Source of the DNA: a virus
Length of the DNA: 51,547 nucleotides
Reading direction: 5' to 3' (one strand)
IMG/VR virus record: IMGVR_UViG_3300044799_000342
Span: 1-51,547 of that record
In this document: one piece after another, positions 2,048-39,341 of the stretch
Layout of the letters: the number at the start of each line of letters is the position of its first letter
How positions within the stretch are numbered: the stretch's first letter is position 1
The notes under the pieces: model-generated
The model's database searches: none
The model's input: the letters and a program-made list of their open reading frames with translations, nothing else
Told to the model about the DNA's origin: nothing
Program-made: the position numbers and the translations under genes

Positions 2048-2773
2048 TCAATCGAACGCCGGCCGGCCACGGAAGGCCACCATGCGCCGCACCTGGTACT
2101 TGCGCAAGAGGCGCGCCGCGTAGTTTGCCTCGGGACTTGACCCGATCACGGTTTTGCTCAGAAGACCACCGGTTTCGCTGTAGTCCATGCTGCGCCAGCT
2201 GTTGACGAAGCCGCTTCCCGCGCTGGCGCCAGCGGTCTGCATCAGTTGCTTATATTCCCGCGCCAGGATCGCCAGGGCCATCTTGACGGTGCCAGGCATG
2301 TCGGCCAGCGTATCCCACAGGCCCGCCACGTAGGTCACGTCCACCCAGGCCGGCTTGTTCTGCGCCGCGCAGCAACAACCGCCGCAGAACGCGACACCTT
2401 CGTGCCGCACCTCTACCTCACCGGCCAGGGGCCGGTAGAGCAACATGCAACCCGTGATGGTGTCGGTTTCGCAGTTGCAACTTTCCAGATCGTGCACCAC
2501 CTGCACCAGCGTGATGCTGCGCACGTGGGTCTTCTTGAGTTGCAGGAAGCGGAAGTTGGTATCGTAGTCCAGCCAGCCCTGGGGCCAGATGTGCCGTTCT
2601 TCGGCCACCGTGCCGGTCAACAGATTGGTCGAAAGGAACGTCTCGGCGTCCTCCTGGGCCATGCCCCAGGCCATGTCTTCCTGGGCTTGGGTGCCGGTAA
2701 GGAAGCCGACATTGTTCATTTCGGCCTGCAGGGCCGCAATCACGCCAGGGTCGGGAACGTTTACAACCGTCAT
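2048..2773 (-). CDS. head-tail adaptor (connector) protein, Cys-rich
   Basis: 241 residues from the ATG at 2773, which overlaps the TGA of the upstream gene (ATGA). It is mostly helical, with central beta strands and PxWVDVTYVAGLWDTLADMPGTVKMALAILAREYKQLM, resembling the HK97 gp6-type adaptor family ('v..ay.aGy..lp..lk.a...l...l'). Unusually it carries a cysteine cluster (CNCETD...GCM...FCGGCCCAAQ), about eight cysteines within 45 residues, which could bind metal or stabilise the virion. A longer frame reaches 2932, but its N-terminus is basic and lies inside the upstream gene, so the internal ATG is preferred. Confidence 0.65.
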   Translation of the reverse strand: MTVVNVPDPGVIAALQAEMNNVGFLTGTQAQEDMAWGMAQEDAETFLSTNLLTGTVAEERHIWPQGWLDYDTNFRFLQLKKTHVRSITLVQVVHDLESCNCETDTITGCMLLYRPLAGEVEVRHEGVAFCGGCCCAAQNKPAWVDVTYVAGLWDTLADMPGTVKMALAILAREYKQLMQTAGASAGSGFVNSWRSMDYSETGGLLSKTVIGSSPEANYAARLLRKYQVRRMVAFRGRPAFD

Positions 2774-4101
2774 GGCGTCACCTTCGTCCACGCTGTATCC
2801 GCCGCGCCGGTCTTGAACCACAGTTCGCCTGCTGCGCCGTTCGTGCGACTGTACTGGGCGCAAAGCGGCCCAGCCACGCCCGCGCCAGCACTCGGATCGG
2901 CCGTTCCGAACATGGGGCTGATCAACCGCCAATCGGTGTCGAGCACGCCGACTTTCTGATAGAGGAGACGGGTATCTGTGGACATATAGAGCGAACCTGG
3001 TAGGGCGAAATAACCGAGCGGCTTGCCCTGTGTTAGTTCATAGACGCCATAGTTTCCGCCAATGATGTTGGTGTTGTCGACGGCGATATAGAATCCAGCG
3101 GCGACCGGCACGTCGCGCGAACCCAACGCGCCGACGAAGGTAATATACATGCTCGTGGAAAGATCACCGGTGACAAGGACGTTGCCAGCACCAATGCCAG
3201 GCAGAGCCTCTAGCGCAGTTTGAACAGTGGCCGCGTTGGCATCCCAGGCCAATGGCGGGCTGTTGCCCGTTCCGTTCCCCAAGGTGAAGGTGCCACCCGT
3301 AGGGGGGCCTTGAGCCGCGCCGAAGCCGAAGACTTCATCGTCTGCGGCGTTCGCCGCGGGATCGCCTGGCCCCCAGACTAGGTAGACCTGACTCCCCGCG
3401 CCACCGTTAGCCTTGTCATCGCGCTTCAAACAAAGGTAGCCGTTCCGTGGCACCGATATCTGCCAGCCGAGCACAGCGTTGCAGTCCCAGGCGCTACGTC
3501 GTGAATAGGGTGGCGTTATGCTAAGTTCGAAATCGTGAGGCTGAAATTGGAGAGTACCTTCTTGGATATCGTCCCCAGGAGTCTGTGGGGCCACAGCAAC
3601 GGATATAAAGACCGAGGCGGGATCGACGAAGACGCCATCGGCGTGACCAGCGTTCACCTGGTGAACGAGGCCGACGGAATGCCAGCCGCTGTCGTCGGCC
3701 TTCCGCGCATAAAGCCGCCGATCATCTGATGCACCGTAGCTATGGGCGACGGGCCGCGTGTCCAACCACAGCGTTCCAGGCGGCTGCGAGCCAGGGTCGG
3801 TGTCCTGCATGAGCAGGTTGGCTCCAATCCCGCCCACCTGCACGTCCTCCTCGTAACGCGGCGTCATACCTGCGCCGCTGAAGTAGAGGCGGACAGATTG
3901 CGGCGTGTCGAGCCAGAAGCCGTACTCGCCGAGGCTGCCAGTCGTCAGAGGGTTCGCAAGCGTCGCGCCCGATGTGGGATCGGCGTAGAGCGGCTGCGCC
4001 ATGGGCGTCGAGGTGCCTTTTTCATAGATCGCGACGTTCGCGCCAGGGAGCGCATCTCCATTCTGCTTTTGGAGATAGGCGAAGTAGTGGGCTCGCGGCA
4101 T
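2770..4101 (-). CDS. virion structural protein (fiber/decoration-like)
   Basis: 443 residues from the ATG at 4101, with GAGGAGG 7-8 bases before it; the longer frame to 4173 starts inside a terminator hairpin and is rejected. The N-terminus (RAHYFAYLQKQNGDALPGANVAIYEKGT) resembles the domain that attaches exposed fibers. Around residues 290-345 there is a module of the form GTFTLGNGTG...PLAWDANAATVQTALEALPGIGAGNVLVTG, a repeat widely found in phage structural proteins. The C-terminus has LWFKTGAADTAWTKVTP. It sits at the head-tail connector block, directly after the glycan island, and could be a target of that island. Exact role unknown. Confidence 0.6.
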   Translation of the reverse strand: MPRAHYFAYLQKQNGDALPGANVAIYEKGTSTPMAQPLYADPTSGATLANPLTTGSLGEYGFWLDTPQSVRLYFSGAGMTPRYEEDVQVGGIGANLLMQDTDPGSQPPGTLWLDTRPVAHSYGASDDRRLYARKADDSGWHSVGLVHQVNAGHADGVFVDPASVFISVAVAPQTPGDDIQEGTLQFQPHDFELSITPPYSRRSAWDCNAVLGWQISVPRNGYLCLKRDDKANGGAGSQVYLVWGPGDPAANAADDEVFGFGAAQGPPTGGTFTLGNGTGNSPPLAWDANAATVQTALEALPGIGAGNVLVTGDLSTSMYITFVGALGSRDVPVAAGFYIAVDNTNIIGGNYGVYELTQGKPLGYFALPGSLYMSTDTRLLYQKVGVLDTDWRLISPMFGTADPSAGAGVAGPLCAQYSRTNGAAGELWFKTGAADTAWTKVTP

Positions 4102-4120
4102 GGTGGGCCTCCTCACCATA

Positions 4121-4129
4121 ATGGTCGAC
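4121..4129 (-). promoter_or_regulatory. recurrent late element GTCGACCAT, copy 2
   Basis: The transcribed strand reads GTCGACCATTATGGTGAGG and runs into the ribosome binding site of the gene at 4101. It lies immediately after a terminator-like hairpin, which is where a new transcript would be expected to begin. Confidence 0.55.
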
Positions 4130-4136
4130 TTAAAAC

Positions 4137-4171
4137 GCCAGGGGCCACGCACCGTCAACGTGGCCCCTGGC
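4137..4171 (-). terminator. intrinsic terminator at end of glycan island
   Basis: A perfect 13-bp stem (GCCAGGGGCCACG / CGTGGCCCCTGGC) with a 9-base loop, followed on the minus strand by GTTTTAA. It lies 26 bases after the stop of the last glycosyltransferase gene and just before the next late element. Confidence 0.75.
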
Positions 4172-4197
4172 AATCCGTTGCCCTCATGGGCTTGGAA

Positions 4198-5076
4198 TCA
4201 GAGTAGGAAAGGCTCGTCGTACTGCAGCAGGTCGCCGGCCTGGTGCGACAGGATCAGTTGACCCTCGTTCACCTCGATGCGCGATAGGGCAATCGGCTCG
4301 CGCCCCACCACCGCTATGGCGGCGGGGTCAAACGCCACGGCCAGGCCGGCCTTGCGCAACTGCAGGCAGTAGTACATGTCGGCGAAGGGCCGGTTGCCAA
4401 ACGGATCGCTGGGGAACGGGCCAAGGGTGCGGAAAAGGCTGCGCCGCGTCGCCATGAAGTTCACCGGCACCCCCTGCAAATCCTGACGCGGGTAGATTTT
4501 CGGGTTATCGGGCGACCAGCCAGGGAAGCGCACGTAGGGCTGCATCATAGCGCCTACCACATAGCCGGCGGATCGGATCGATGGGCACGGGTAGCCTGGC
4601 GGTTGGCAGTCGATGTCCCACACGGCCAGGCCGCCGACGGCGCCCACTGTCTCCGGCTCCATGGCGGCGGCCAGGGCCACCCAGGCACCTTCGGCCAAGA
4701 TCGCGTCGGCGTCGACGAACAGGATCAGCGGTGCCTGTCCATGCTGGGCCGCGCGGTTGCGGGCCTCCCAGCGGTCACGGCCGCTGCGGTCGAGGCGCAG
4801 GTTTTCCTCCCGCGCGATCCGCGCCAGTTCGGTGTGTAGCGGCGACAACTGGACGGGGATCGCGTCGGCCAGGGTGATGGTGGCGTCTTCCGGCAGTTGC
4901 CGGCGCAGGGCGCCCAGGCACAGGCCCAACCGGTCGATGGTGGTGAACGCCGTCACCACGGCATCGACGCTGCCGCGCATCGGCAAACCCATGGCGGAAT
5001 GGGTTGGCGCGCCCGTTGCCCGCGCCTCTGCCCTACGTCGCGCCCGCTGGCGGCTGGGGCTTTTCCGTGATCGCAT
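4198..5076 (-). CDS. GT2-family glycosyltransferase
   Basis: 292 residues. A Rossmann start (VDAVVTAFTTIDRLGLCLGALRRQLPE), a segment DRWEARNRAAQHGQAPLILFVDADAIL with the metal/sugar-nucleotide D-x-D motif (VDADA), then GAVGGLAVWDI and a late aromatic/acidic stretch (FADMYYCLQLRKAGL) match inverting GT-A glycosyltransferases of family 2. AGGAGG lies six bases before the ATG at 5076, inside the previous gene. The first 28 residues are strongly basic, so ATG 4992 is an alternative. It is the last gene of the island and is followed by a terminator. The sugar and acceptor cannot be read from sequence. Confidence 0.8.
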   Translation of the reverse strand: MRSRKSPSRQRARRRAEARATGAPTHSAMGLPMRGSVDAVVTAFTTIDRLGLCLGALRRQLPEDATITLADAIPVQLSPLHTELARIAREENLRLDRSGRDRWEARNRAAQHGQAPLILFVDADAILAEGAWVALAAAMEPETVGAVGGLAVWDIDCQPPGYPCPSIRSAGYVVGAMMQPYVRFPGWSPDNPKIYPRQDLQGVPVNFMATRRSLFRTLGPFPSDPFGNRPFADMYYCLQLRKAGLAVAFDPAAIAVVGREPIALSRIEVNEGQLILSHQAGDLLQYDEPFLL

Positions 5077-6244
5077 TCAGGGCCTCCTCTACAACGTCAA
5101 GGGCCTTATCCCAGGTGCGGCCGCGTGCCCAGGCGAGGGCCATGTCAGCGCGGCGCCTGGCCCGTTCCGGCTCGCTGCGGATGGACTGGATCGCCAGGGC
5201 GGCCTGCATCGGCGAGGCAAAGCGGCGGGTCTGGTTGCCGAAAGGATCGATGTAGCTATACTCCGCCGGCACCAGGTAGCCGCGTTCGTCGGCGAGGTTT
5301 TCGGCCATGCCGCCGGCGTCGGTGGCCACCACGGGCAAGCCGCAGGCCATTGCCTCCATGACGGGTAGGCCCAGGCCCTCAGCCTTCGACAACTGCAGGT
5401 AGCAATCAGCGCCCCAGTAGATCTCGCGCAGTTGGGCGTCGGTCATGCCGGCGTTGCGTTCGAACTGGAAGAACTGCGTCTGGTTGTGCAACTGAAAATA
5501 CTGGTTGAGGTTCCAGGTCTGAAAGCCGATGTGGGTCGGCCGGCGTTTGGTTTTCACCACCAGCCGCACGTCGTCATAGCGCGGGCCGCGCAGGATCGGC
5601 CGCTTGTCGCTGGCGGGCGGCCACACGAAGCGATGGCCGAGCAGCAGGGCCGCCGTGGCCCACATGGCCGGCAGGTTCTTGCGCTCGTGGTTGTCGCAGA
5701 CCGAGAAGATAACAAAATTGTTATCCCAGTCCTCCCGCTTGCGCACTGCCGCCCGCTCCTCGGGCGTGGGCGGGCGCCAGAACTCGGTATCGATCCCCAC
5801 CGGCAGATGGCGCGCGGTCAACCCGCAATCCTGGCACAACTTGGTGGCCCATTCGGTTTCTAGCAGGGCAGCCCCCATGCGGTCGATGACGGTTGTCCAT
5901 TCGCTGGGGTGGATCAGCGGGTCGCTTTCCAGTGGGAAAATGCCGGCGTAGGGCACACCCCACTCCATCACCTGCTGCCAGGTGCAATGGTCAACGATGT
6001 CGCCGATCCCCAGCAGGACATCGGGCGCATAAGCGGTTTTGATCATGTTGACGTGCCGCAGGAGGGTTGCCGGTTCGCTGGGGCAGGCGTGCACCGGCAG
6101 GCGGTGCTCCTGGCCCTGGTAGTTCAGGGCAGCGATCACGACATCATGCCCGCGCTGACCCAGGGCGCCGCAAACCGCCTGGGCGATAGTGGTGTAGCCG
6201 CTGCCGCCGGCGACGTTAAACTCGGTGATGCAGGCGATTTTCAT
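5033..6244 (-). CDS. GT4-family glycosyltransferase
   Basis: 403 residues of the two-domain GT-B fold. The N-terminal MKIACITEFNVAGGSGYTTIAQAV is the usual opening with the glycine-rich turn; the C-terminal domain has VIFSVCDNHERKNLP and the EX7E signature in SKAEGLGLPVMEAMACGLPV, followed by VVATDAGGMAENL. This predicts a retaining GT that uses a nucleotide-activated sugar. GGGAGACGGCC precedes the ATG. A 239-base intergenic region lies upstream, so this gene and the next may be transcribed from their own promoter. Confidence 0.88.
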   Translation of the reverse strand: MKIACITEFNVAGGSGYTTIAQAVCGALGQRGHDVVIAALNYQGQEHRLPVHACPSEPATLLRHVNMIKTAYAPDVLLGIGDIVDHCTWQQVMEWGVPYAGIFPLESDPLIHPSEWTTVIDRMGAALLETEWATKLCQDCGLTARHLPVGIDTEFWRPPTPEERAAVRKREDWDNNFVIFSVCDNHERKNLPAMWATAALLLGHRFVWPPASDKRPILRGPRYDDVRLVVKTKRRPTHIGFQTWNLNQYFQLHNQTQFFQFERNAGMTDAQLREIYWGADCYLQLSKAEGLGLPVMEAMACGLPVVATDAGGMAENLADERGYLVPAEYSYIDPFGNQTRRFASPMQAALAIQSIRSEPERARRRADMALAWARGRTWDKALDVVEEALNAITEKPQPPAGAT

Positions 6245-6483
6245 GGCCGTCTCCCGTTGCTGAAATTGTTACATTTCTGCCCTTGACCATAAGACGCAAC
6301 GTTGCTACGCTGCTCAGCGCGGCTTCCGGCCGCGATGACGGACGGACTGAGTTACCCCCCTACTACTGAGACCTTGGTAGATCTCTTAAGACGATCTGGT
6401 AACATAAGGGTGGTGATCAGTCCTTCCGTCCTTCATACGATAGTAACTACTCCCCCGCGCGTAGCGCGCGCGAGGCGTGCCGG
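6245..6483. other. 239-base intergenic region with inverted repeats
   Basis: The largest gap inside the glycan island, and AT-richer than its surroundings. Visible structure: a 10-bp palindrome GCAACGTTGC near 6295-6304 inside a plus-strand promoter-like pair (TTGACC, 17 bases, TACGCT); a GC-only hairpin (CGCGCG CTA CGCGCG) just after the stop of the upstream GT2 gene; and an imperfect long inverted repeat pairing about 6340-6360 with 6408-6432. It may hold a plus-strand gene (6335-6487), a structured leader for the GT4 gene, or both. Confidence 0.45.
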
Positions 6484-6487
6484 TTAA
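6335..6487 (+). CDS. possible small plus-strand gene (50 aa)
   Basis: An ATG frame reading MTDGLSYPPTTETLVDLLRR, then SGNIRVVISPSVLHTIVTT and a basic tail. It is the only plus-strand frame in the window that does not lie opposite a well-supported gene. The composition looks protein-like (amphipathic helix, then strands). A promoter-like TTGACC-N17-TACGCT lies 25 bases upstream, but there is no ribosome binding site. Its end overlaps the stop of the convergent GT2 gene by four bases. It could also be chance. Confidence 0.25.
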   Translation: MTDGLSYPPTTETLVDLLRRSGNIRVVISPSVLHTIVTTPPRVARARRAG

Positions 6488-7353
6488 GCCAACCCTCGCC
6501 GGTCGAGTTCCAGCGCCAGCAGTTCGCGCTTATCCGCCCACTTCTCGATCAGCAGGCGTTCGTGGTCGGCCGCGTGGTGGAGGCCGATCTTGGGATCGTT
6601 GGCCAGGGCCTTCTGCCAATCCTTCTGGCTGCGGTGCACCACCACGGCTAGCCCGCAGCGTATGCGGAAGCCGGCGGTCTTGATCTGCAGCTGCAGGTCG
6701 GTTTCTTCATGCCAGTGCGGGTTGAAGCGCGGGTCGTACTGGAAGACCGGCCAACCGTCTAGGCCGCGCAGGTTGCGCCAGGCCCAGCAATAGCCCATCA
6801 CCAGGTCGGCGTAGTCGCCTGGCAACGGCCGGCGGTCGTCAAGGAAGTTGGGCGCCATCCAGGGGCCGGCCAGGAGGCCCGCCCAGTTCAGGTAAAAGCC
6901 CTCCTGGCCGGCGGCGCCCACCTTGGCATCGGTGAACGCTTCCAGTAGGAACTTGTCCCAGCCAAGCCCCACCTCAACGTCGTCGTCCACCTGCAGGATG
7001 AACTGGCCGCGCGCGATCATGATCCCGTGGTTGCGGGCACAGACGCCCTCGTGGCTGGGTAGGTGCATGGTGGTGTAGCGGCGGTCTTCCGCATGTACCC
7101 TGGGGTGTAGTTCTTGGATCGCCCTGCTGGTGCCGTCGTCGCTGCCGTTGTCGATCACGATCAGCTCGTAGTCGGGCACGGGCGTGGCCGTCTTGGCCCA
7201 AATGCGGTTGATGCAGGCCAGCACGGTGTCGCGCCGGTTATGCGTCAGCAACACAATGCTGAACAGCAGGTCTTGCGGCGCGGGTTGCCGGCGACCGCCG
7301 CCGCTGGTTTCGCCGTGTTCTATCCGATGAGCGTTTCCTTGTGCCGTCGCCAC
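6484..7353 (-). CDS. GT2-family glycosyltransferase
   Basis: 289 residues from the GTG at 7353, which has GGAGG seven bases upstream; the frame extends to 7695, but the extra part is an Arg-rich shadow of the methyltransferase gene. Family 2 features in order: SIVLLTHNRRDTVLACI, the nucleotide-binding VIDNGSDDGTS, an acceptor loop SHEGVCARNHGIMIARG, and FILQVDDDVEVG with the DDD metal motif. It overlaps the upstream methyltransferase by 34 bases, so the two are likely co-translated. Probably transfers a sugar from a nucleotide donor to the island's glycan. Confidence 0.85.
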   Translation of the reverse strand: MATAQGNAHRIEHGETSGGGRRQPAPQDLLFSIVLLTHNRRDTVLACINRIWAKTATPVPDYELIVIDNGSDDGTSRAIQELHPRVHAEDRRYTTMHLPSHEGVCARNHGIMIARGQFILQVDDDVEVGLGWDKFLLEAFTDAKVGAAGQEGFYLNWAGLLAGPWMAPNFLDDRRPLPGDYADLVMGYCWAWRNLRGLDGWPVFQYDPRFNPHWHEETDLQLQIKTAGFRIRCGLAVVVHRSQKDWQKALANDPKIGLHHAADHERLLIEKWADKRELLALELDRRGLA

Positions 7354-7874
7354 TGGTTTTCCTCCTGCCAGGCCGCCCAGCTGGCGGCCGTCTTGATCGG
7401 GCGCAGCAGCACCCACAGGTTGCCGCGCCACGCCTGTTCGACGATGCCAAAGTGGTGCGGTGCGATCCCGTAGTCGCTGAACCCTTCCACGAAGCCAGGC
7501 TCCCAGTAGAGGAAACTGGTTTCGCTGAACGTGTGGCAATGGGTGGGGTCGCCGTGGGCGCCGGCGCTGGCGTAGTAGGGCACCACGATCTCCACCCAAG
7601 AGTCGGGTCGGCAGATGCGCCAGATCTCCGCCATGCAAGCAATCAAATCTGCGATATGCTCGAGCGTTTGGTGGGCGATCACGGCCGTGGCGCATTCGTC
7701 TTCCAGCGGCCAGGGCCGCACGTTCAGATCGTGCACCAGGTCGACGCCGTCCAGTCCAACGCGATCGATCCCGAAGTACCCCTCATTCTTGTGATTACCG
7801 CAGCCCAGTTCGATGCGCCCAGGCCGCGCCCGCGTGGGCGTGGGTGGTGGGTGCTTGCCGATCAGTTGGTTCAC
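7320..7874 (-). CDS. class I SAM-dependent methyltransferase
   Basis: 184 residues. Motif I is IELGCGNHKNEGYFGIDRVGL; a DLNVRPWPLEDECATAVIAHQTLEHI segment gives the acidic residue and the 'LEH' after motif IV; IWRICRPDSWVEIVVPYY is the usual post-motif strand. This is the compact methyltransferase type (Methyltransf_11-like) often found in surface polysaccharide clusters. The neighbouring GT2 gene overlaps its end and another methyltransferase lies just upstream, which suggests O-methylation of sugar residues. Confidence 0.82.
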   Translation of the reverse strand: MNQLIGKHPPPTPTRARPGRIELGCGNHKNEGYFGIDRVGLDGVDLVHDLNVRPWPLEDECATAVIAHQTLEHIADLIACMAEIWRICRPDSWVEIVVPYYASAGAHGDPTHCHTFSETSFLYWEPGFVEGFSDYGIAPHHFGIVEQAWRGNLWVLLRPIKTAASWAAWQEENQWRRHKETLIG

Positions 7875-7914
7875 GCCAGTTTCCTCGCCAGGGCCATATA
7901 TTGCGTCGGTATCC

Positions 7915-8457
7915 TCACAAGGGCTTCCTTCCGTGTCCGAACACCCCCACGGGGTACTGCCAGTCCTGTTCGCTGGGCGGCGAATTCCTGGGCCGGCCCA
8001 CGCCCTCGGTGGCGATCACCACGTCCACCAGGCCGGCGCGCCGCAACAGGTAATCAAGGCCGCTGGGCGTGGTGCGCCCGTAGTCGCCGCTTTGCCCCTT
8101 GTCGATCTCGGCGTCGTGCAGCGGGAAGGCGAAGCACCAGGTAACGATCAGCAGGCCGCCAGGGCGCAGCGCCAGGGCCATGGTGTCAATCGCCGCCCAG
8201 GGCTCTTTGATATGTTCCAGCGTTTCACAACAAACCACTGTGGAAAACTGGCCATTGAACCGTTCACCGGCGTGGAGAACGTCGGCCACCAGGTCGACGC
8301 CAGGGCCGTCAACCAGGTCGATCCCCAAGTAGCCAGCCTGGGGGAACAGCGGCCGCACCGTGCCGTTGACGTTGCGGCTGCCCACCTCGAGCACGGGCGC
8401 CGAGGCGCCCTGGCTCTGCACCACCATCGTCACCCAGTCCGAAACTGCACGCCGCAT
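7915..8457 (-). CDS. class I SAM-dependent methyltransferase
   Basis: 180 residues from the ATG at 8457 (AAGGGGATCAGAT upstream); an upstream ATG at 8544 lies within GC-rich hairpins and is rejected. Motif I is VLEVGSRNVNGTVRPLFP, followed by YLGIDLVDGPGVDLVADV, FSTVVCCETLEHIKEPW and LALRPGGLLIVTWCFAFPLHD. Same general type as the gene at 7320-7874 but clearly divergent from it. It is preceded by a pair of hairpins that may attenuate transcription. Confidence 0.82.
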   Translation of the reverse strand: MRRAVSDWVTMVVQSQGASAPVLEVGSRNVNGTVRPLFPQAGYLGIDLVDGPGVDLVADVLHAGERFNGQFSTVVCCETLEHIKEPWAAIDTMALALRPGGLLIVTWCFAFPLHDAEIDKGQSGDYGRTTPSGLDYLLRRAGLVDVVIATEGVGRPRNSPPSEQDWQYPVGVFGHGRKPL

Positions 8458-8502
8458 ATCTGATCCCCTTCCTGGGGCGCTACGGTGCCCGACACGGCCC
8501 CT

Positions 8503-8541
8503 TGCCCCCTGGGGGCAGTAAAACCCTCTGCCCCTGGGCAG
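8503..8541 (-). terminator. double GC hairpin, terminator/attenuator-like
   Basis: On the minus strand CTGCCC-AG-GGGCAG (8541-8528) is followed by AGGGTTTT, then a second hairpin TGCCCCC-A-GGGGGCA (8517-8503). It occupies the 117-base gap between two methyltransferase genes. The first hairpin plus T-run is terminator-like but short. Confidence 0.45.
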
Positions 8542-8574
8542 CATGGCGGTGTCCTTGCCACCGTGGAAAGAAAT

Positions 8575-9486
8575 CTAAGGCGCGGGCGTCGGCCCCCTGG
8601 CCCGTTTCCACGCCCCGATCCCAAAGTGACCGTCCGGCGGGATCACCGCGTCCCACCCCATGCCGGCCAGCACGGCGTCAAGCCCCTGCTGCAGTTCCGC
8701 GCTTTCGGGCAGGTGCGTGGGAAACGGCTTGAAACTGTCGTGGGTCAGGATCAGCACGCCGTCCGGCGCCAGGGCATCGACGAACTGCTGCAGCAGGCCC
8801 ACCGGATCGGGTACGTGCTCAACCACGTCGAGGGCGCACAACGCGCCCCACCGTGCCGGAAGGTCATCAGCGGCAAGAATGGGCACCTTTAAGGCTTCGA
8901 TGTCGGCTAACATCTTCTTCCAATCGGCGAGCCAGTCCCTTATTGCCGTCTCCGGCGAAACGCAAACGTGGATGTGGCCTGGTGGGTCAAAGCCAGCCTG
9001 CAGCAAACCCTCGCGTTCAAACCGCCAGGCCGCGAAATTGGCCGTTTCGCCCAGGTCGGCATACGCCACCTGGTAGCCGGCGCGGGCCAGGAACAGGGCT
9101 TGCTGCCCGATCCCGCCGCCGTAGTCCAGGATCGGGCCGTGGCCGTGAAGGTGTGTCACGTATTGGTGCACGATATTGGCGCGGTGATCGCCGGCCCACA
9201 GTTCGGGCGGCGGACCAGCGCCCCGCAGCAGTTCGAAGATCATGCCGAAGTTGGTGTGGTAGAACTGGCGGATCGCCTCGCGGTCAAGCAAGGCCGGAGC
9301 CTGCAGATCATGCCAATCAATGCCCGCCGCCAGGGCCACGTCCTCCCATTCCAGCTCAAGCAACTGGGCGGCGTCTACACCCACCGCGATGTAGCGGTCG
9401 AAATCCCTGCGCGGCAGGCCAGGCCAGTATTCCGAGCAAAGTTCCCACGCATATTCGAGGGCCGGATCAGGACTGGTGGGGTTCAT
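8575..9486 (-). CDS. SAM-dependent methyltransferase with portal-like insert
   Basis: 303 residues from the ATG at 9486 (AAAGGCGGTCAAT upstream). The methyltransferase core is GPILDYGGGIGQQALFLARAGY (about residues 117-138), YADLGETANFAAWRF, ALDVVEHVPDPVGLLQQF (218-235) and DGVLILTHDSF. Between motif II and the DVVEH motif, residues 168-204 align without gaps to residues 208-244 of this phage's own portal protein (20 of 37 identical by eye, including DWLA.WK.MLA and LKVPIL). The N-terminal 110 residues are helical and of unknown role. It is transcribed with the island; target unknown. Confidence 0.78.
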   Translation of the reverse strand: MNPTSPDPALEYAWELCSEYWPGLPRRDFDRYIAVGVDAAQLLELEWEDVALAAGIDWHDLQAPALLDREAIRQFYHTNFGMIFELLRGAGPPPELWAGDHRANIVHQYVTHLHGHGPILDYGGGIGQQALFLARAGYQVAYADLGETANFAAWRFEREGLLQAGFDPPGHIHVCVSPETAIRDWLADWKKMLADIEALKVPILAADDLPARWGALCALDVVEHVPDPVGLLQQFVDALAPDGVLILTHDSFKPFPTHLPESAELQQGLDAVLAGMGWDAVIPPDGHFGIGAWKRARGPTPAP

Positions 9487-9682
9487 ATTGACCGCCTTTC
9501 TGCAGTTGCTTTTGCCGGTGCAGTTGGTCGCGCCACCGCTTCGGCAGTCGCCGGCGCTCGGCGCGGGGCAGTTTGCCAAAGGTGCAGCCCGCGCACATGA
9601 TCTGATCGCTGCCCAGGCCCTTGGCGCTGAACTCCTCGGGCAGCAGGGCGCCGCATTCGCAACAGGTGAACACCTTGGTCAA
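9467..9682 (-). CDS. small zinc-ribbon protein
   Basis: 71 residues from a TTG that overlaps the TGA of the upstream gene (TTGA), with GGTGAGG before it. Two Cys pairs (CCECG and CAGC about 19 residues apart) form a probable four-Cys zinc ribbon, followed by a highly basic tail (RAERRRLPKRWRDQLHRQKQ) that suggests nucleic-acid binding. It overlaps the start of the methyltransferase gene by 20 bases. No specific family recognised. Confidence 0.6.
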   Translation of the reverse strand: MTKVFTCCECGALLPEEFSAKGLGSDQIMCAGCTFGKLPRAERRRLPKRWRDQLHRQKQLQKGGQYEPHQS

Positions 9683-9939
9683 GGCGGCCACCTCACCCAG
9701 CCGGCCTTGGCCATCTGTTCCTGGTCGAGCGATCCCAGGGTAATGCCAGCCGCCAGGCAAATGGTGAAGACGTGCACGCCGGCGTCCTGCAGGGCCTTGT
9801 GCAGCGCCGCCACGCCGTCGTAGATCTCCCAGGTATCGTCCTGGGTGGTGCGGGCCACCAGCACGTCGCCGTCCTGCAGCCGCAGGCGTTTCAGGGCAAC
9901 CTCAAGGCCCTCGATTTTAACCGTGGCGGTGGGTGCCAT
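9679..9939 (-). CDS. hypothetical protein
   Basis: 86 residues from the ATG at 9939. Beta-rich N-terminus (TATVKIEGLEVALKRLRLQDGDVLVARTTQDDTW), then an alpha-rich second half (GVAALHKALQDAG). The upstream extension to 10167 reads as Arg-rich shadow and is excluded. It ends in the TTGA overlap with the zinc-ribbon gene. No family recognised; it is co-transcribed with the glycan genes. Confidence 0.55.
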   Translation of the reverse strand: MAPTATVKIEGLEVALKRLRLQDGDVLVARTTQDDTWEIYDGVAALHKALQDAGVHVFTICLAAGITLGSLDQEQMAKAGWVRWPP

Positions 9940-9943
9940 GGCG

Positions 9944-10219
9944 TTAACGCGACGGATCGGGTGCCCGCTGGCAGTCCTCGCGCGGCCCCGCCGGTGCCTC
10001 GGACACCTGGCCGGTGTTCGCCTGCACTGCGCTGGCTTCCACCACCACCAGTTGCGCCTCATCGAACCATTGTAGATCGACGGGCACCGGCTCCTTTTCC
10101 TTGAGGACACGCGGTTGCACGCCGATTCGGACGCAGCCGTAGAGCCACTCGGTTCGGCCGGTGGCAATTCCGGTGCAGCCAGTGATGGTGTCCCTTACGT
10201 CGTCTCCCAGGTTGATCAC
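9944..10219 (-). CDS. conserved phage protein of unknown function
   Basis: 91 residues from a GTG overlapping the TGA of the upstream GT gene (GTGA), with AAGGGG before it. The N-terminal half, with VRDTITGCTGIATGRTEWL, then YGCVRIGVQPRVLKE and WFDEAQL, matches from memory a small beta-barrel-like phage protein that is common but uncharacterised. The C-terminal 25 residues are Pro/Ala-rich. The four-base overlap indicates translational coupling. Confidence 0.6.
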   Translation of the reverse strand: MINLGDDVRDTITGCTGIATGRTEWLYGCVRIGVQPRVLKEKEPVPVDLQWFDEAQLVVVEASAVQANTGQVSEAPAGPREDCQRAPDPSR

Positions 10220-11199
10220 CAGCGTTCCCCTTTCGCTGCGCGCTGCAGCAATGCCTCTATCCTGTCGGCCGACGCGGCCGGCGAGAACGTGGTTTCCACG
10301 TACTGCCGGCAAGCGGCGGGGTCAATGTCTAACCAGCACCGGCGCGCAAGGCCGGCGATGAACTGATCATCGTCTTTCCACAGGAAGCCGGTTCGCCCGT
10401 GCACGATGTATTCGGGGTTGGCCCCGTGGTCGTAGGCGAACACCGGCGTGCCGGCGGCCATGGCCTCAAGCATCACGGTGCCGGATGGTTCCTGCGGCTC
10501 CGAAGTGAACATGAGGCAGCAGGCGTTCGCCAGGTGGCGGGCCTTCTGTTCGCCGGCCAGTTCGCCGACATACTGCACGCTTTCGCGGATCAACGGCTCG
10601 ACCGTCGTGGTGAAATAACCCGCGTCCGATTGCGGCCCCGCGACAACCAGGGGCACGCCGGCGCCGACGCACAGGGCAATGGCCAGCTCGACACGTTTGT
10701 AGGGCACGATCCTGCCCAGGAACAGGGCCGGCCCGCGCTTTGCCATGGGACCACCCAGGGCGTAATCCGCCGGCTGCACGTTGATGAGGGCCACCTGGGG
10801 ATCGGCGACGCCATGCGACTGGCCGTGGTGCCGCGAACAGAAGACGGGGTTGCGTGCGTGCGCAGGCATCTTCACCCAGCCGTGGCTCTGCGTCACCGCC
10901 GGCAGGTTGGGCCACCGCGCCTGGGCCAACTGGTAAAGGCTGTGATCGAATAGTACGTCGGGCTGGCGTTCGCGCTCCATCAGGTCGACCACGGCGGTTT
11001 CGGTGTCGTAGGGCCGGCGGAACGGCGCCACCTGCACCACGCGCACGCCGTCAATGTGCGATCCCTGCAGGGCGAACAGCGTCACCTCATGGCCCCGTGC
11101 GGCTAGCGCCGCGCTGATCTCGGCGACGACCGTTTCCAACCCGCCCGTGCTGGGCGGCGGCGTGGCCAGGAAGGCCGAAGACTGAATCCAGATTTTCAA
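10216..11199 (-). CDS. GT4-family glycosyltransferase
   Basis: 327 residues. The N-terminal domain is MKIWIQSSAFLATPPPSTGGLETVVAEI with the donor-side glycine loop. The C-terminal domain has ALFLGRIVPYKRVELAIAL, a segment VGELAGEQKARHLANACCLMF, and the EX7E motif in SEPQEPSGTVMLEAMAAGTPV followed by FAYDHGANPEYIV. This is a typical retaining GT-B enzyme with a short N-domain. The start ATG overlaps the upstream stop (ATGA at 11196-11199). Confidence 0.88.
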   Translation of the reverse strand: MKIWIQSSAFLATPPPSTGGLETVVAEISAALAARGHEVTLFALQGSHIDGVRVVQVAPFRRPYDTETAVVDLMERERQPDVLFDHSLYQLAQARWPNLPAVTQSHGWVKMPAHARNPVFCSRHHGQSHGVADPQVALINVQPADYALGGPMAKRGPALFLGRIVPYKRVELAIALCVGAGVPLVVAGPQSDAGYFTTTVEPLIRESVQYVGELAGEQKARHLANACCLMFTSEPQEPSGTVMLEAMAAGTPVFAYDHGANPEYIVHGRTGFLWKDDDQFIAGLARRCWLDIDPAACRQYVETTFSPAASADRIEALLQRAAKGERW

Positions 11200-11516
11200 A
11201 GTTGGATGCCCTTCACCGCCTCGGCCATGCGGCGGGTACGGTAGGCTTTGTCCACCACCCCCGCAACGAATTGCTGGGCTTTAGCTCGCATCAACAACGC
11301 CGTGGTGGCGCTGGCTTCGGACGGCGCCTTTACCCGCGTGGTGGCCCATACCAGGCCGCCCTCGATATTGATCCAGAAATCGTTCCCATGGTTAAGAAAC
11401 CCCTGGTGCTTGAGAGCTTCGCAAAGGGTAGTCTCTTTCTCCGTGAAGTCCAGGACGATTGAAACATCATAGCAATCGTCAAGGCGGCTAATGATAATGT
11501 CCTTTATCACTTCCAC
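11196..11516 (-). CDS. hypothetical protein
   Basis: 106 residues, MEVIKDIIISRLDDCYDVSIV..., an alpha/beta composition with DFWINIEGGLVWATTRVKAPSEASATTALLMRAKAQQFV. The start overlaps the upstream RusA-like gene by 10 bases and GGAGG is present (TTGGAGGTGTGGAAGTG context). It ends in an ATGA overlap with the GT4 gene. Not recognised. Confidence 0.55.
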   Translation of the reverse strand: MEVIKDIIISRLDDCYDVSIVLDFTEKETTLCEALKHQGFLNHGNDFWINIEGGLVWATTRVKAPSEASATTALLMRAKAQQFVAGVVDKAYRTRRMAEAVKGIQL

Positions 11517-11920
11517 ACCTCCAATTGAATGAAAATCCGGCCGGCTTCACGCCCATCGTTGCCCTGGCGGCCAGGGCTGGCCACCTCAAGGTGGCGGTCG
11601 TCGTCGATCAGGCCCAAGCAATACCGTTTGCCGGTGGCCTTGGTGGCGACCTTCAAGATGTCGATGATCGGTTTCAGGGTGGCGATGCAGTTGTCGGCGT
11701 CAGCGACCTGCCGGCTGAAATAATGGATCGAGGACAGGCGGCCGCCGGTAAAGGGTCTGGCGGCCATGACGGCCGGCGGGATTTGCGCCAGGATTGCCAG
11801 CCCTTGTTCCTTGGCGTATTCCGTGCCGAGGCGCTGTTTGACACCCCAGCAGCCACGCGCGTTGGCGGTCAACTGCCTGGGCGGCGCCGCCACCCAAAAG
11901 CGGACGATTTCCCTCACCAT
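11507..11920 (-). CDS. RusA-like Holliday junction resolvase
   Basis: 137 residues. The RusA pattern is present in order: an early TANARGCWGVKQRL (the 'P..aN...hw..r' stretch), a central DADNCIATLKPIIDIL corresponding to D-x-DN-x3-K-x3-D, then GLIDDDRHLEV for the second acidic cluster (IDDD). RusA-family enzymes resolve four-way junctions during recombination or packaging. Its location inside the glycosyltransferase island is unusual, since the other recombination genes lie at 29-37 kb. It overlaps the upstream GT4 gene by seven bases. Confidence 0.75.
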   Translation of the reverse strand: MVREIVRFWVAAPPRQLTANARGCWGVKQRLGTEYAKEQGLAILAQIPPAVMAARPFTGGRLSSIHYFSRQVADADNCIATLKPIIDILKVATKATGKRYCLGLIDDDRHLEVASPGRQGNDGREAGRIFIQLEVWK

Positions 11921-12936
11921 CGTACCCCCAGTATATCGCGCAGGAACCCATCCCAGCGGTTGGCGAAGTCGGTCATGTTGGCGTTCTTCTCGGCCCAGGC
12001 CCGTGGCGCCGTGCCCCAGCGACCGGCCTTGACGCGCCCGCAGGCGGCACGGATCGCGCCGGCGTAGTCCTCAGCGGTGGCGGTGATTGGCAGGGTGTAA
12101 CCCAGCGACGACAGGCCCGCCCTGTCGCATTGTACGTCCTCGAATATGCCGGCGTTAGCCGTCACCACCGGCAGGCCCGACGCCAAAGCTTCGAGGCAAC
12201 TGTAGGCGTTGCCCTCGTGGCGCGTGGGCAGCAGGAACAGGTGGGCGCGCCGGAAGGCGTCGGGTTCTTCGCCCTTGCCAGCGCCCAGGTATTCGATGCG
12301 GTAGTCACTGCCCAGTAGGGCGGCGATGCGCGGGATCAACTTGCCGCCCTTCTTCTCATTGCGGCCGGCTGCCTCCACGATAATCCACGGCGGGCCAGGC
12401 GGCAGCGGTGCGGGGCGCGGGCGGTAGGCGGCCAGGTCGATGCCATGGTAGATCACGGCGCTGGCCGCCCGCCCGTGGTGCCGGCGCAACTCGCGCGCGC
12501 TGGCGGCGCTGCAGGCGACAGGGAAGGCGTTGGGCGCGTTGAAGGCCTCGCCCTGGCGCTGCACTTCCAACCCAGGCGTTAGGCCCATGCGGGCGTGGAA
12601 CTCGGCCCAGGTGCCGTGGATCACGGGCACCACCGGCTTGCTGCTGATCCCGATGCCCCAGTAGCCGTCGCTCACGGCCACGTCGTAGTGCACGCCGAAC
12701 TGCGGCCCGTCCATCCAGCGCCCCAGCAGCAGCGCCTTTTCGGGGTTGGGCAGTTCGGGGAAGCGGTCTCGGTGGGGGAAGTCCGACCACCCGATCAGGA
12801 TCACGCCCCAACCCTTGGCGCGCAGGGCCGCCCGCAGGTAGTCGGCGAACTTCTCCACGCCGCCCAACTCGCCGTCGTCACGCTTCAACCAACTGACGTG
12901 GGCCACGGTTAGGCGCTTATTGACTTGGGCCGTCAT
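11914..12936 (-). CDS. GT4-family glycosyltransferase
   Basis: 340 residues. N-terminal LTVAHVSWLKRDDGELGGVEKFADYLRAAL; C-terminal WIIVEAAGRNEKKGGKLIPRIAAL, then PDAFRRAHLFLLPTRHEGNAYSCLEALASGLPVVTANAG, in which E-G-N...LEAL is the GT4 EX7E motif. A short acceptor domain suggests a soluble or peripheral enzyme. It starts ATG; the upstream gap of 31 bases has no obvious promoter, so it belongs to the island operon. Confidence 0.87.
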   Translation of the reverse strand: MTAQVNKRLTVAHVSWLKRDDGELGGVEKFADYLRAALRAKGWGVILIGWSDFPHRDRFPELPNPEKALLLGRWMDGPQFGVHYDVAVSDGYWGIGISSKPVVPVIHGTWAEFHARMGLTPGLEVQRQGEAFNAPNAFPVACSAASARELRRHHGRAASAVIYHGIDLAAYRPRPAPLPPGPPWIIVEAAGRNEKKGGKLIPRIAALLGSDYRIEYLGAGKGEEPDAFRRAHLFLLPTRHEGNAYSCLEALASGLPVVTANAGIFEDVQCDRAGLSSLGYTLPITATAEDYAGAIRAACGRVKAGRWGTAPRAWAEKNANMTDFANRWDGFLRDILGVRW

Positions 12937-12967
12937 CGATGGTCACTCCAGCCATTATTCGCCCCCT

Positions 12968-13993
12968 TCACCGCGTCGAACTCGCGCGCACGTCCCTAAG
13001 ATGCCTGCGCACGGCTGACCAAATTGTCTCGGCGGTAACGTCGCGCAGGCTGCGCCCCTGGGGGCAGTGGGTGGTCTTCCCAGGCGGGGCATCGGCCTTG
13101 CCGGCGATATGATCGAGGCGCCACATGCAGGGTTCACACAGGCGTTCATTGCGGATCTCCGTACATAGCTCCGGCGGCACCCACACCTGCAGCCCGATCT
13201 TGGTGGCGCAGGTGAGCACCACGGCCGGCTTGCCCAGGGCGAACCGCAGGTTGGACAGGCCGCCCTCGGTGCACACCATGGCCTGGGCGCGGTCAAGGAT
13301 CGCGGCCGTCCAGCGCATGTCCAGTTGGCCGCTCAGGTTGACGGTAGCAGACCAGGGCGCGCCGTGCAGCCGGTGGCCGGCCAGGGTGATAGGCGTAAAG
13401 CCTTCGTCGATCAGGCCCAGGATCAGTTGCGACCAGCCCGCGTCGTTCCACATTTTGCCGGCCCAGCCGCAGCGCGGGGTGATCACGCACCAGCGGTTGG
13501 CGAAACTGTTATGGTGCCTCAACAATTCCAGCGCATCGGCCCGTTCCTGTTCGCGGATGAAGTAGTCGGCGTCAAACCGCGTGCTGCTTGACCATGGCAG
13601 GGCCAGTTGCTCGAAGTAGCGCGCCTGCAGGGGCACGTCCAGCGGCGGGCCGCCCACGCGGGCATAAAGCAGCGCGACGCCTTTGTGGTCGCCGCGCGGT
13701 ATGGGATCGTTGAAGTCGATCAGCTGGTCGATGTTGGGGTTATCCCACAGCATCTCATCGGGGCTGCCGCCACTGCCAGGTTTGTCAGGCTGGTCGTATT
13801 CAAGCCGGCGCCGGCCCCTAACGTACGTGCGGAAGATAATGCGGGAGTCCGGCTCGCGCCGTTTCAATTCCCGTAGGACTGGCGTGCTGCAGAGCACGTC
13901 GCCCAGGCCCCAGGCCAGGCTTAGGACGTAGGTTTGGGCGCCGATTGTTCTTCCACCAGTTCGAACAGGGGCCTCTTGCCGCCCGTGCAGCAT
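12968..13993 (-). CDS. GT9-like (heptosyltransferase-type) glycosyltransferase
   Basis: 341 residues. QTYVLSLAWGLGDVLCSTPVLRELKRREPDSRI is the hallmark N-terminus of the GT9 heptosyltransferase family ('v...g.GDvl..tPvl..Lk...P...i'). The C-terminal half has ITPRCGWAGKMWNDAGWSQLILGLID, TLAGHR and AQAMVCTEGGLSNLRFALGKPAVVL, equivalent to the family's donor-binding segment. Several Cys near the end (CEPCMW...CPQG) could bind metal. The start is uncertain: ATG 13993 overlaps the previous gene by 73 bases, with AGGGG close to it. Together with the PfkB/cytidylyltransferase pair at 25613-26927 it suggests use of an activated heptose. Confidence 0.8.
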   Translation of the reverse strand: MLHGRQEAPVRTGGRTIGAQTYVLSLAWGLGDVLCSTPVLRELKRREPDSRIIFRTYVRGRRRLEYDQPDKPGSGGSPDEMLWDNPNIDQLIDFNDPIPRGDHKGVALLYARVGGPPLDVPLQARYFEQLALPWSSSTRFDADYFIREQERADALELLRHHNSFANRWCVITPRCGWAGKMWNDAGWSQLILGLIDEGFTPITLAGHRLHGAPWSATVNLSGQLDMRWTAAILDRAQAMVCTEGGLSNLRFALGKPAVVLTCATKIGLQVWVPPELCTEIRNERLCEPCMWRLDHIAGKADAPPGKTTHCPQGRSLRDVTAETIWSAVRRHLRDVRASSTR

Positions 13994-14145
13994 TCGCCCC
14001 TGAATGTTAACAGCGCCGGCGCATCCTCCGGCGCGATTTCGAACTCGCGATCCTCGCCCTGGCGCAATTGGTAGACACGACCGCTTGGCAATTTGGTGCG
14101 GTCGCCGATCCGCATTGGCCCGCCGAAGCGATACCGGATGCGCAA
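13921..14145 (-). CDS. hypothetical protein
   Basis: 74 residues from a TTG at 14145 with AGGAGG seven bases upstream; the frame is open to 14469, but the extra part is a shadow. Contains MRIGDRTKLPSGRVYQLRQ and a CC-containing loop (FRGECCTGGKRPLFELV), likely a small beta-barrel. It overlaps the GT9-like gene start. Not recognised. Confidence 0.5.
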   Translation of the reverse strand: MRIRYRFGGPMRIGDRTKLPSGRVYQLRQGEDREFEIAPEDAPALLTFRGECCTGGKRPLFELVEEQSAPKPTS

Positions 14146-14155
14146 GGCGGCCCTC

Positions 14156-14638
14156 CTATCGACGCAAGCCGCCCTGTGGCTCGAAGCCGCCCTTGCCGGC
14201 GTCGTGGGTGCGCTGCAGCGGCATGCCCACCTTGGGCTTGTCGATGCCTGCAGTTGCCGCAACCGACTCGGGGCCGGCGGCCGCGTCGGTTGTTTCCTCG
14301 TCGTCCACGGGCACCGCTGCCGCCTGGGCACTGCGCAGATCGGCTTCCTCCATGGCCTGGCGGTCGGTGGCCATAAGGGTGTCGCGCTTGCCCACCAGGG
14401 AATAGGGTTGGTACACGATCTGCGCCCGTTGCTGGCTGGGGCCGGTGCCGGCGCGCAGGATCTCCTCACAGAATTCGGTGCGGATTAGTTCCCAGCCTTC
14501 GGCCGCGAGTTGATTCAACCGCGCTAGGCCACGCGCCACGGTGAAAACGCGGTAGCAGGCCAGGGGGTTGGTGGCGGGCAGTCCATCGAGGCTAGGTGGT
14601 AGGAACTCGGGCGCGGGCGTTTTGCCTTCGGATGGCAT
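14156..14638 (-). CDS. hypothetical protein, first gene of island operon
   Basis: 160 residues from the ATG at 14638 (AAAGGAGG four bases upstream). Central segment NPLACYRVFTVARGLARLNQLAAEGWELIRTEFCEEILRA; the C-terminal 60 residues are Ala/Pro-rich and low complexity. A promoter with a partial operator sits 40-70 bases upstream, so this gene is probably read first in the island transcript. No family recognised. Confidence 0.6.
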   Translation of the reverse strand: MPSEGKTPAPEFLPPSLDGLPATNPLACYRVFTVARGLARLNQLAAEGWELIRTEFCEEILRAGTGPSQQRAQIVYQPYSLVGKRDTLMATDRQAMEEADLRSAQAAAVPVDDEETTDAAAGPESVAATAGIDKPKVGMPLQRTHDAGKGGFEPQGGLRR

Positions 14639-14676: not shown

Positions 14677-14706
14677 GTTGTACTCCACGGTTAATCCCTC
14701 TGTCAA
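14677..14706 (-). promoter_or_regulatory. promoter with half operator, glycan island
   Basis: On the minus strand TTGACA (14706-14701), an 18-base spacer, then TACAAC (14682-14677). The spacer carries TTAACCGTGG, one half of the palindrome found in four other promoters. It drives the gene at 14638 and probably the whole island. Confidence 0.65.
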
Positions 14707-14716
14707 GGGACGAAGT

Positions 14717-14744
14717 TGGGGTCGGCCATTGCGGGCCGACCCCA
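14717..14744 (-). terminator. terminator-like hairpin after major capsid gene
   Basis: A perfect 11-bp stem (TGGGGTCGGCC / GGCCGACCCCA) with a six-base loop, 41 bases past the capsid stop and just before the island promoter. It lacks a strong T-run on the minus strand, so termination may be partial. Confidence 0.65.
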
Positions 14745-14784
14745 GGTGCTTTCGCTATTTCGCCGGCGCTGCCAGCGGCCGTTG

Positions 14785-16329
14785 TTACTCCGGTTGCGGG
14801 AGCGGGTGCAGCATGGGCGTGCACGGGTCAACGTAGGTGCACCCGTCGTCGATGATGCCCTCGAACGTGGCCTCGCACAACGCCTGGGCACACATGGCCT
14901 TCACCACCAGGGCAGTCACCGCCCAAATCTCGAAGGCGACAGCGGTACAGCCTGGCGTCAAGTCCTTGGCCGCCAGCGGAATCTGCGTCGCCTTGTAGAT
15001 CAGTTCCTCGCCGTTGTGTGTCAACCGCACGGGGTAGAGGATCGAGCGGAACTTCCCGCCGCCCAGGTCTTGCCGGGGGAACCTGGTGTCGCCGATCAGG
15101 GAAACCGGGCCGATCCCCGTCATGATCTGGTTGGCGAAGTGGATGCCAGGCACCACGTTGGCGTGGTCGGTGTACTGCACGAAGTTGTAGCCGTTGGCCA
15201 TGTAGCCGAGGCACAACGCCTGCAGCGCCGACGGGTGGCCCAGGATCGCCTGCGGGTGGGCACAGCCGGCCGCGATGAACTGGTCGAACTGGCCTGCCGA
15301 GAACGTGCCGGTCATGAACGTCGGGCACGCCCGCGCGCCGTTGGCGGCGGTGATCAACTGGGTGAGGCCATCGAACTCCAACGGGAAGTTGAAGGCGTCG
15401 CCGTTCACCAGCAGGTCGTCCCAGCCGTTGAGCACGTTGATCATGCCCAACTGCATTTCCTTCTCGCGAGCGCTGGCGATGGCCCCGCGCAGCATGGTGG
15501 CGGTGTCCAGTTCACCAGGGAGGCCCTGGTCGTTGAAACCGCCCACCAGCATGTTGACGCCCCAGCCCGCCGCGATGCTGGCCGCCGTGTGGCGAATGTC
15601 CGCCTCGGCCAGCGTTTTCTTCACACCGATGTGCTTCTTGTCGATGTGGGCGTTGGTGGTGCTGTGCGTCTGGTCTTCGGGGCAGGCGCCCTTGGGGAAG
15701 GCGATGCTGTTGCAGCCCGACGCGAAGTCGGATGCGGTCAGTTCCTTCCAGCTGTCGATGAGCAGGCCGGCGGTGTGCTCGGGCAGGGCGTTGTACAGGC
15801 CCACTTCCTCGCACATAACGATCAGTTCGGTGGTGTCGATGGGCGTGCCGAACTCGGTTGCCCAATCGGCCTCCACCGGCGCCGGCGAGGGCCAGATGTT
15901 GGGGTCGGTGTCGCGCAGGGCCAGGAACGCCTTGCCCAGCGCCGTCCTGATCTGCGCGCCGTCGCCCGACGCCATGGCCGTCTTGAACTCGCCGCCCAAC
16001 TGCGCGTCGAGCGCGGCCAACCTGCCCTTCTGCTCGTCGGTTGCCTGGGCGCGATCCACGATGCCCTTGGCCCAGGCCAGCACGGCGTCGGGATCGTTCG
16101 TCACGTTGGCGATATCGCGCGGGATACCGTTGCGGTCGACAGGCGGCGCGTAAACGCGTCCGCCGTCATCGGCGGCCCGCCTTTGCTGTTCCTCCACCCA
16201 CTGGGGGTAGGGAACGGTGCGGTAGGCGCCGCTGGAAATGTAGCGGCTGTCCACGCCCCTGCCGCTGCCGTACATGTCGGGCGCTACCAGCCCAGGCGGC
16301 CGCGCAAAGGGCAAAACTCTGCGTTGCAT
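14785..16329 (-). CDS. major capsid protein
   Basis: 514 residues, in the canonical slot directly after the protease/scaffold gene. AAGGAGATCACC precedes the ATG. The mid region has a long N-arm/helix (AVLAWAKGIVDRAQATDEQKGRLAAL) and the C-terminal half contains AHPQAILGHPSALQALCLGYMANG and IMTGIGPVSLIGDTRFPRQDLGGG, consistent with an HK97-fold capsid with a long N-terminal delta-like region. It has many Cys (about 11), unusual for a capsid. Monocistronic exit at the hairpin at 14717-14744 suggests high expression. Confidence 0.75.
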   Translation of the reverse strand: MQRRVLPFARPPGLVAPDMYGSGRGVDSRYISSGAYRTVPYPQWVEEQQRRAADDGGRVYAPPVDRNGIPRDIANVTNDPDAVLAWAKGIVDRAQATDEQKGRLAALDAQLGGEFKTAMASGDGAQIRTALGKAFLALRDTDPNIWPSPAPVEADWATEFGTPIDTTELIVMCEEVGLYNALPEHTAGLLIDSWKELTASDFASGCNSIAFPKGACPEDQTHSTTNAHIDKKHIGVKKTLAEADIRHTAASIAAGWGVNMLVGGFNDQGLPGELDTATMLRGAIASAREKEMQLGMINVLNGWDDLLVNGDAFNFPLEFDGLTQLITAANGARACPTFMTGTFSAGQFDQFIAAGCAHPQAILGHPSALQALCLGYMANGYNFVQYTDHANVVPGIHFANQIMTGIGPVSLIGDTRFPRQDLGGGKFRSILYPVRLTHNGEELIYKATQIPLAAKDLTPGCTAVAFEIWAVTALVVKAMCAQALCEATFEGIIDDGCTYVDPCTPMLHPLPQPE

Positions 16330-18966: not shown

Positions 18967-18975
18967 ATCACCGTA

Positions 18976-18984
18976 ATGGTCGAC
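18976..18984 (-). promoter_or_regulatory. recurrent late element GTCGACCAT, copy 3
   Basis: Transcribed strand GTCGACCATTACGGTGAT runs straight into the ATG at 18966. The extended match GTCGACCATTAyGGTGA is shared with copy 2 at 4121. Confidence 0.55.
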
Positions 18985-19742: not shown

Positions 19743-19770
19743 ATTATAGGCCGTCCGGCGCGGCTGTCAA
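19743..19770 (-). promoter_or_regulatory. perfect-consensus sigma70-type promoter
   Basis: On the minus strand TTGACA (19770-19765), 16 bases, TATAAT (19748-19743). The -35 overlaps the portal stop codon. The predicted start point falls at the ATG at 19736. No operator palindrome is present, so it may be constitutive. Confidence 0.8.
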
Positions 19771-22010: not shown

Positions 22011-22102
22011 GGCGGCTCCTTGGCAAAGTAGGGGCGGGCAGTCCGCTTGGCGGACGGCGCCCACAGCCCGCCGGCGGGAGATATGTCCGCCCGCCCGCCT
22101 AT

Positions 22103-35719: not shown

Positions 35720-35728
35720 CAGTCCTCC

Positions 35729-38740: not shown

Positions 38741-38753
38741 GGCGTTGGCCCCC

Positions 38754-39330: not shown

Positions 39331-39341
39331 CCTCCACCGGA

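Follow-up and report, generated by a model that had tools for sequence, protein, structure and literature searches.

A conserved island of glycosyltransferase and methyltransferase genes within the virion gene block of an uncultured phage group

Described systems and the island

Glycosylation of phage virions is known from few isolates. In Corndog and other cluster O mycobacteriophages, gp35-38 comprise an O-methyltransferase and three glycosyltransferase (GT)-type genes within the virion operon, and modification of the capsid by them is plausible (PMC4351075); Corndog-type modification of the capsid and tail tube was reported by Freeman 2023, as cited in PMC11600133. In the chlorovirus PBCV-1, protein A064R combines two GT domains with one methyltransferase (MT) domain, and virus-encoded GTs together with a glycan O-methyltransferase act on the major capsid protein outside the secretory pathway (PMC7019647). 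Here we describe an island of six GT and three MT genes at positions 4198-14638 of the IMG/VR virus record IMGVR_UViG_3300044799_000342, a stretch of 51,547 nucleotides analysed as a whole and referred to below as the window. The island probably builds a methylated glycan on a virion protein, a reading to which we assign a probability of roughly 60%.

Like the Corndog module, the island brings GT and MT genes together within the virion gene block. It differs in having six GTs, three to four MTs across the genomes compared, a promoter of its own, and sugar-activating genes, and it follows the capsid gene, whereas the Corndog module is situated between portal and protease. The chloroviruses also encode both GT and MT functions; PBCV-1 is a eukaryotic virus, and the comparison concerns function rather than homology. 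The gtrABC O-antigen conversion systems of temperate phages likewise include phage-encoded GTs, among them GT2 enzymes, but Pfam scans of the window found no GtrA flippase or membrane-bound GtrB, the island enzymes have no conserved membrane segments, and the island is not a moron beside an integrase. Heptose-1-phosphate nucleotidyltransferase-like (HldE-like) genes, some of them beside MT genes, are encoded by cyanophages; these matches correspond to large cyanophages. The kind of system is known from Corndog and the chloroviruses. What appears to be new is how large the island is, its fixed gene order, the promoter of its own, the accompanying sugar-activating genes, and the phage group that carries it.

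Content of the island

The window represents a complete phage genome of 51.4 kb with a 127-bp direct terminal repeat. All its main genes lie on the minus strand, as do all the island genes, sugar-activating genes, virion genes, and transcription signals given below. Pfam searches bore out the original prediction that the island encodes two GT2, three GT4, and one GT9 enzyme together with three MTs, here assigned to class I, between 4198 and 13993. Its placement between the major capsid gene (14785-16329) and the connector genes (below 2764) was confirmed, as was its share of about a fifth of the genome (20% of 51.4 kb for 4198-14638). In order of transcription, the enzymes are GT9, GT4c, GT4b, MTc, MTb, MTa, GT2b, GT4a, and GT2a, accompanied by small genes.

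The GT9 gene (12968-13993), with a predicted heptosyltransferase fold, matched PF01075 at 27.3 bits (cutoff 22). GT4c (11914-12936), the most conserved island enzyme (65-91% identity), GT4b (10216-11199), and GT4a (5033-6244) all exceeded Pfam cutoffs. GT2b (6484-7347, start codon approximate) matched PF00535 at 63.8 bits and carries the invariant motif QVDDDV. The weakest assignment was that of GT2a (4198-5076). The window copy remained below the Pfam GT2 cutoff, its predicted structure was of low confidence (predicted local distance difference test, pLDDT, 41), and its profile matched no chain in the PDB; the assignment is backed by the homologues, as all five of those tested matched Pfam GT2 (best 2.7e-10). 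Catalytic motifs were retained, namely EX7E in GT4a (SKAEGLxLPVMEA) and GT4c (HEGNAYxxLEA), E/D-X7-E in GT4b, DxD-type motifs in both GT2 enzymes, and GKxW in GT9. Each MT reached a Pfam cutoff: MTc (8575-9489, motif DYGGGIGQQ) and MTb (7915-8457) with PF13489, and MTa (7320-7874) with PF08241. No transmembrane-type segment was conserved in the island enzymes; the top hydrophobic window among them, with a value of 2.1, belonged to the GT4b of the analysed genome and was absent from GT4b homologues.

Conservation in related genomes

The comparison set comprised eight genomes: the window itself (G000, a virus record), its close relative G001, five viral contigs of 58-61 kb retrieved by a GT9 search of viral contigs, and one contig of a metagenome-assembled genome (MAG) labelled Elusimicrobia, retrieved by a capsid search of bacterial genomes. 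The label is not proof of an Elusimicrobia host, as the MAG contig resembles a whole phage genome and may be mis-binned. Searches with the capsid, portal, GT9, and GT4c sequences returned no isolate phage relatives; there was no GT9 or GT4c sequence match among 50,697 phage records, and isolated phages gave only weak, partial GT-domain matches to GT4a and GT2b.

In these seven further phage contigs the nine genes recur in unchanged order at the corresponding site, except that MTc of G004 is reduced to a 74-residue remnant that has lost the catalytic part. A fourth MT lies between MTb and MTa in most relatives and is missing from the window and G004. Outside the close pair, the enzymes were mostly 45-73% identical to those of the window, with lower values in places for MTc (down to 35%), compared with 59-61% for the capsid protein and 53-56% for the portal; by these sequence comparisons, the nine enzymes appear about as conserved as the capsid protein. 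Between the window and G001, the ratio of nonsynonymous to synonymous substitution rates (dN/dS) was 0.16-0.40 for the enzymes and 0.19 for capsid and portal, showing that the island enzymes are under purifying selection. Chance or misannotation was ruled out by the conservation in eight genomes and the dN/dS values, and a recently acquired moron by the GC content of the island, which equals that of the genome, and by its constant location across the genomes.

G004 lacks most counterparts of the window's SbcCD genes and their neighbours but retains the virion genes, the island, and the sugar kinase described below. The island is therefore passed on together with the virion block, even in a genome whose replication genes mostly lack a counterpart. 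Two distant relatives, G010 and G009, with capsid identities to the window of 47% and 54%, respectively, have different cassettes: in the former, RmlD/dehydratase/NTP-transferase/GT2 follows the capsid gene, and in the latter, radical SAM-MT-GT4 lies beside tail genes. Different enzymes in a comparable setting suggest that selection maintains the decoration of the particle and not any single reaction.

Residues 169-205 or so of the window MTc (about 37 residues) resemble the phage's own portal protein (WLADWKKMLADIEALKVPIL). In G001 and other relatives, MTc lacks most of this segment, which suggests an insertion from the portal gene.

Transcription signals

The promoter originally predicted at 14677-14706 is of the sigma70 type (TTGACA-N18-TACAAC) and has a comparable counterpart at the same place in all eight genomes; a strict promoter scan, which requires T at the last -10 position, overlooked it. 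Between the capsid stop codon and this promoter lies a GC-rich hairpin (approximately 14714-14745) that occurs at the same place in all eight genomes with differing sequence (z -1.9 to -5.5 in the seven folded). The island thus appears to be a separate transcription unit. The predicted terminator at 4137-4171 was found as a terminator-like hairpin after GT2a (4136-4172), but it is common only to the window and G001, so that an island closed by its own terminator holds for these two genomes alone. In G003 and G005, GT2a lies only 46-57 nt from the connector gene, and transcription may continue from the island into the connector genes.

TTGACA-type promoters also precede SbcC/SbcD, kinase-region, and other metabolic genes, and were about 2- to 10-fold commoner than in simple base shuffles of these genomes. 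Directly upstream of virion genes (portal, protease/scaffold, connector, and tail), the motif GTCGACCATTnnGGTGA was found instead; in almost every relative it lies 15-63 nt upstream of the portal, protease/scaffold, post-island, and g81 genes, and the window contains three matches (4113-4129, 18968-18984, and 39334-39350) against 0.08 expected. In position it is like the start-associated sequences of cluster K mycobacteriophages (PMC3203893). The sequence GTCGACCAT occurs at window positions 774, 22103, and 51067. The motif GTCGACCATT was considered as the -10 element of an extracytoplasmic function (ECF) sigma factor and ruled out, as no conserved -35 element lies upstream. These signals weigh against a simple form of the proposal that the enzymes are made with the particle: the island has a host-type promoter of its own, the virion genes carry another motif, and the island is possibly active before the late genes.

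GT9 and a heptose-type sugar supply

By sequence the GT9 enzyme belongs to the GT9 family, and its structure model (pLDDT 67) indicates a GT-B fold of the heptosyltransferase kind, with nearly all top PDB matches being GT9 enzymes, including WaaF and TibC. Profile searches matched WaaF and TibC equally, and scores against the NCBIfam heptosyltransferase models remained below cutoff. The enzyme shares the GT9 fold with TibC/AAH, the protein heptosyltransferases of autotransporters (the BAHT group), and the KxWND...GW region of these proteins aligns with it. In contrast to them, the model lacks the N-terminal beta-barrel and begins at the first Rossmann strand, and TIGR04414 reached 23.4 of 200 bits, missing the cutoff. 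An invariant stretch C-X2-C-X5-H-X14-C (C286, C289, H295, and C310) lies, in a part of low model confidence, near the site of the TibC four-cysteine iron finger (PMC4358343), with three invariant cysteines rather than four.

Two further genes, outside the island and near TerL, may supply an activated sugar. An HldA-like PfkB sugar kinase (26088-26927) is present in all eight genomes; its family profile had as its best PDB match the D-beta-D-heptose 7-phosphate kinase 4e84 (E=2e-18), and it scored 63 of 345 bits against NCBIfam TIGR02198, short of the equivalog cutoff. An HldC/RfaE2-like (heptose-1-phosphate) nucleotidyltransferase (25613-26110), present in six of the eight, matched TIGR02199 at E=3e-24 with 85 of 181.5 bits, again below the equivalog cutoff. 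HldE-type motifs are conserved in both (GAGD in the kinase and HxGH in the nucleotidyltransferase). The two genes fit the fold of GT9 and suggest a heptose-type sugar, which, together with a protein acceptor, is plausible from the sequences. A more specific scheme, in which the phages make their own activated heptose, a TibC-like GT9 O-heptosylates a virion protein, and five transferases and several MTs extend and cap the chain, is tentative and seems rather unlikely in this full form.

Proposed pathway and alternatives

The island would encode a self-contained cytosolic pathway that decorates one of the phage's own virion proteins, from the capsid, connector, or tail tube, with an O-methylated glycan of several sugars. 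An activated heptose-type sugar would be made with the help of the HldA-like kinase and, in genomes that have it, the HldC-like nucleotidyltransferase, and GT9 would transfer this sugar; the GT4 and GT2 enzymes would add further sugars from host nucleotide sugars, and the MTs would cap hydroxyls of the chain, the substrates and the order of the steps being proposed from the enzyme families. The likely benefit would be protection of the particle or altered surface binding. A methylated glycan on a virion protein, as originally predicted, is still the best explanation, because neither a conserved membrane segment nor a flippase nor a DNA-hypermodification enzyme was recognised; the first two of these absences fit an action on cytosolic acceptors. 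Comparative support comes from the inheritance of the island with the virion block and from the other sugar cassettes in the virion regions of distant relatives.

Several points weigh against it. Sequence evidence singles out no glycosylated acceptor protein. Heptosyltransferases of lipopolysaccharide (LPS) carry a DTGLxH-type donor-site motif, which is absent from GT9; the window has E243-G-G-L-S-N at this site, with only E243 invariant. The HldC-like gene is missing in two of the eight genomes, and together with the motif this suggests that the sugar may not be heptose. Finally, the island shares its promoter class with DNA-metabolism genes, and another motif precedes the portal, protease, connector, and tail genes, so that the timing of the island need not match that of the virion genes.

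The strongest alternative, though an unlikely one, is that during infection the enzymes alter a glycan on the host surface, be it LPS core, capsule, or glycolipid, and thereby block superinfection or re-adsorption of progeny. GT9 enzymes classically build the LPS core, the kinase/nucleotidyltransferase pair resembles ADP-heptose synthesis, a host-type promoter would permit early expression, and soluble GTs could act at the inner membrane. However, neither a flippase nor a polyprenyl-type membrane GT was recognised by Pfam among the window proteins, the cassette travels with the virion block and not with the replication block, and no lysogeny gene was recognised, whereas superinfection exclusion profits prophages most. 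There is a smaller chance that the product is a glycoconjugate, free or linked to protein, with an intracellular role, for instance in acting on a host protein or in counter-defence: GT4a matches PF20706 ('GT4-conflict', a family linked to conflict systems) above cutoff and the promoter class is common to early-type genes, but PF00534 fits GT4a better, PF20706 is weak on the other GT4 enzymes, and nine enzymes are a large set for a counter-defence factor. Modification of phage DNA with glycosylated and methylated bases against restriction, for which T4 DNA glucosylation by GTs and the DNA methyltransferase genes near TerL in relatives could be cited, is very improbable, since Pfam scans of the window proteins (small open reading frames partly scanned) recognised no base-hydroxylating, hydroxymethylating, or hypermodification enzyme, known DNA glycosylation makes do with fewer enzymes than six GTs and three to four MTs, and the island is located with the virion genes.

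Accessory genes and genomic surroundings

The first gene of the unit, N (14156-14638), has no assigned function and no Pfam match, and is kept in all eight genomes (28-57% by tblastn). The gap between capsid gene and N holds a tRNA-like sequence ending in CCA in G005 (oriented position about 35530-35840) and an HNH-like sequence in G006. The small gene s64 (13921-14142), whose own start codon is uncertain, overlaps the start of GT9 and is 45-90% identical in seven relatives. In G001, the GT9 start (L002, about 11820-11920) overlaps s64, with no ordinary in-frame start codon between a TGA and the first strand, and an unusual start or coupling is possible. Two accessory genes complete the unit: K (11507-11920), present in six of the eight genomes, matched no family and no Pfam entry, and its pattern D-x-D-N...DD/ND is one that we take to be reminiscent of RusA resolvases; g9944 (9944-10312), mobile within the unit, has homologues in four relatives, three of which carry it upstream of GT9. 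After the island, a variable and possibly surface protein (2770-4107) has no same-place homologue in most relatives, its N-terminal part being common to G004; in G001, the variable protein after the island (reverse-strand coordinates 23659-25113) contains about 12 short repeats of the type PRRGxxSWGExE.

The gene order is TerL (23402-25396), portal (19767-22064), a ChaB-domain gene read as protease/scaffold from position and sequence (16345-18966), major capsid, island, variable protein, connectors, and, across the genome ends, the tape measure (47216-50347); this last gene and the lack of an evident sheath suggest a siphovirus morphology. An intein-like insert (CFTGDTRIALLDG...VFVHNS) lies close to the C-terminal end of TerL in G004 (locus L034, 7228-9924). 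The window also contains a long array of a 12-nt tandem repeat (33643-34002) and an S-adenosylmethionine decarboxylase-like gene (38366-38851) present in six of the eight genomes.

Significance

An uncultured phage group without close isolate relatives is characterised by a nine-enzyme pathway that has a promoter of its own and is accompanied by sugar-activating genes. If the proposed reading is true, a complex coat of methylated glycan can be a core trait that phages carry and maintain, and the soluble GTs and MTs of the island would form a compact set for study. Such phages would also offer a test case for the purpose of particle coats, be it host defence, environmental stability, or attachment. 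Should heptosylation hold as well, the island would represent a system for protein glycosylation with heptose that viruses carry into bacteria.

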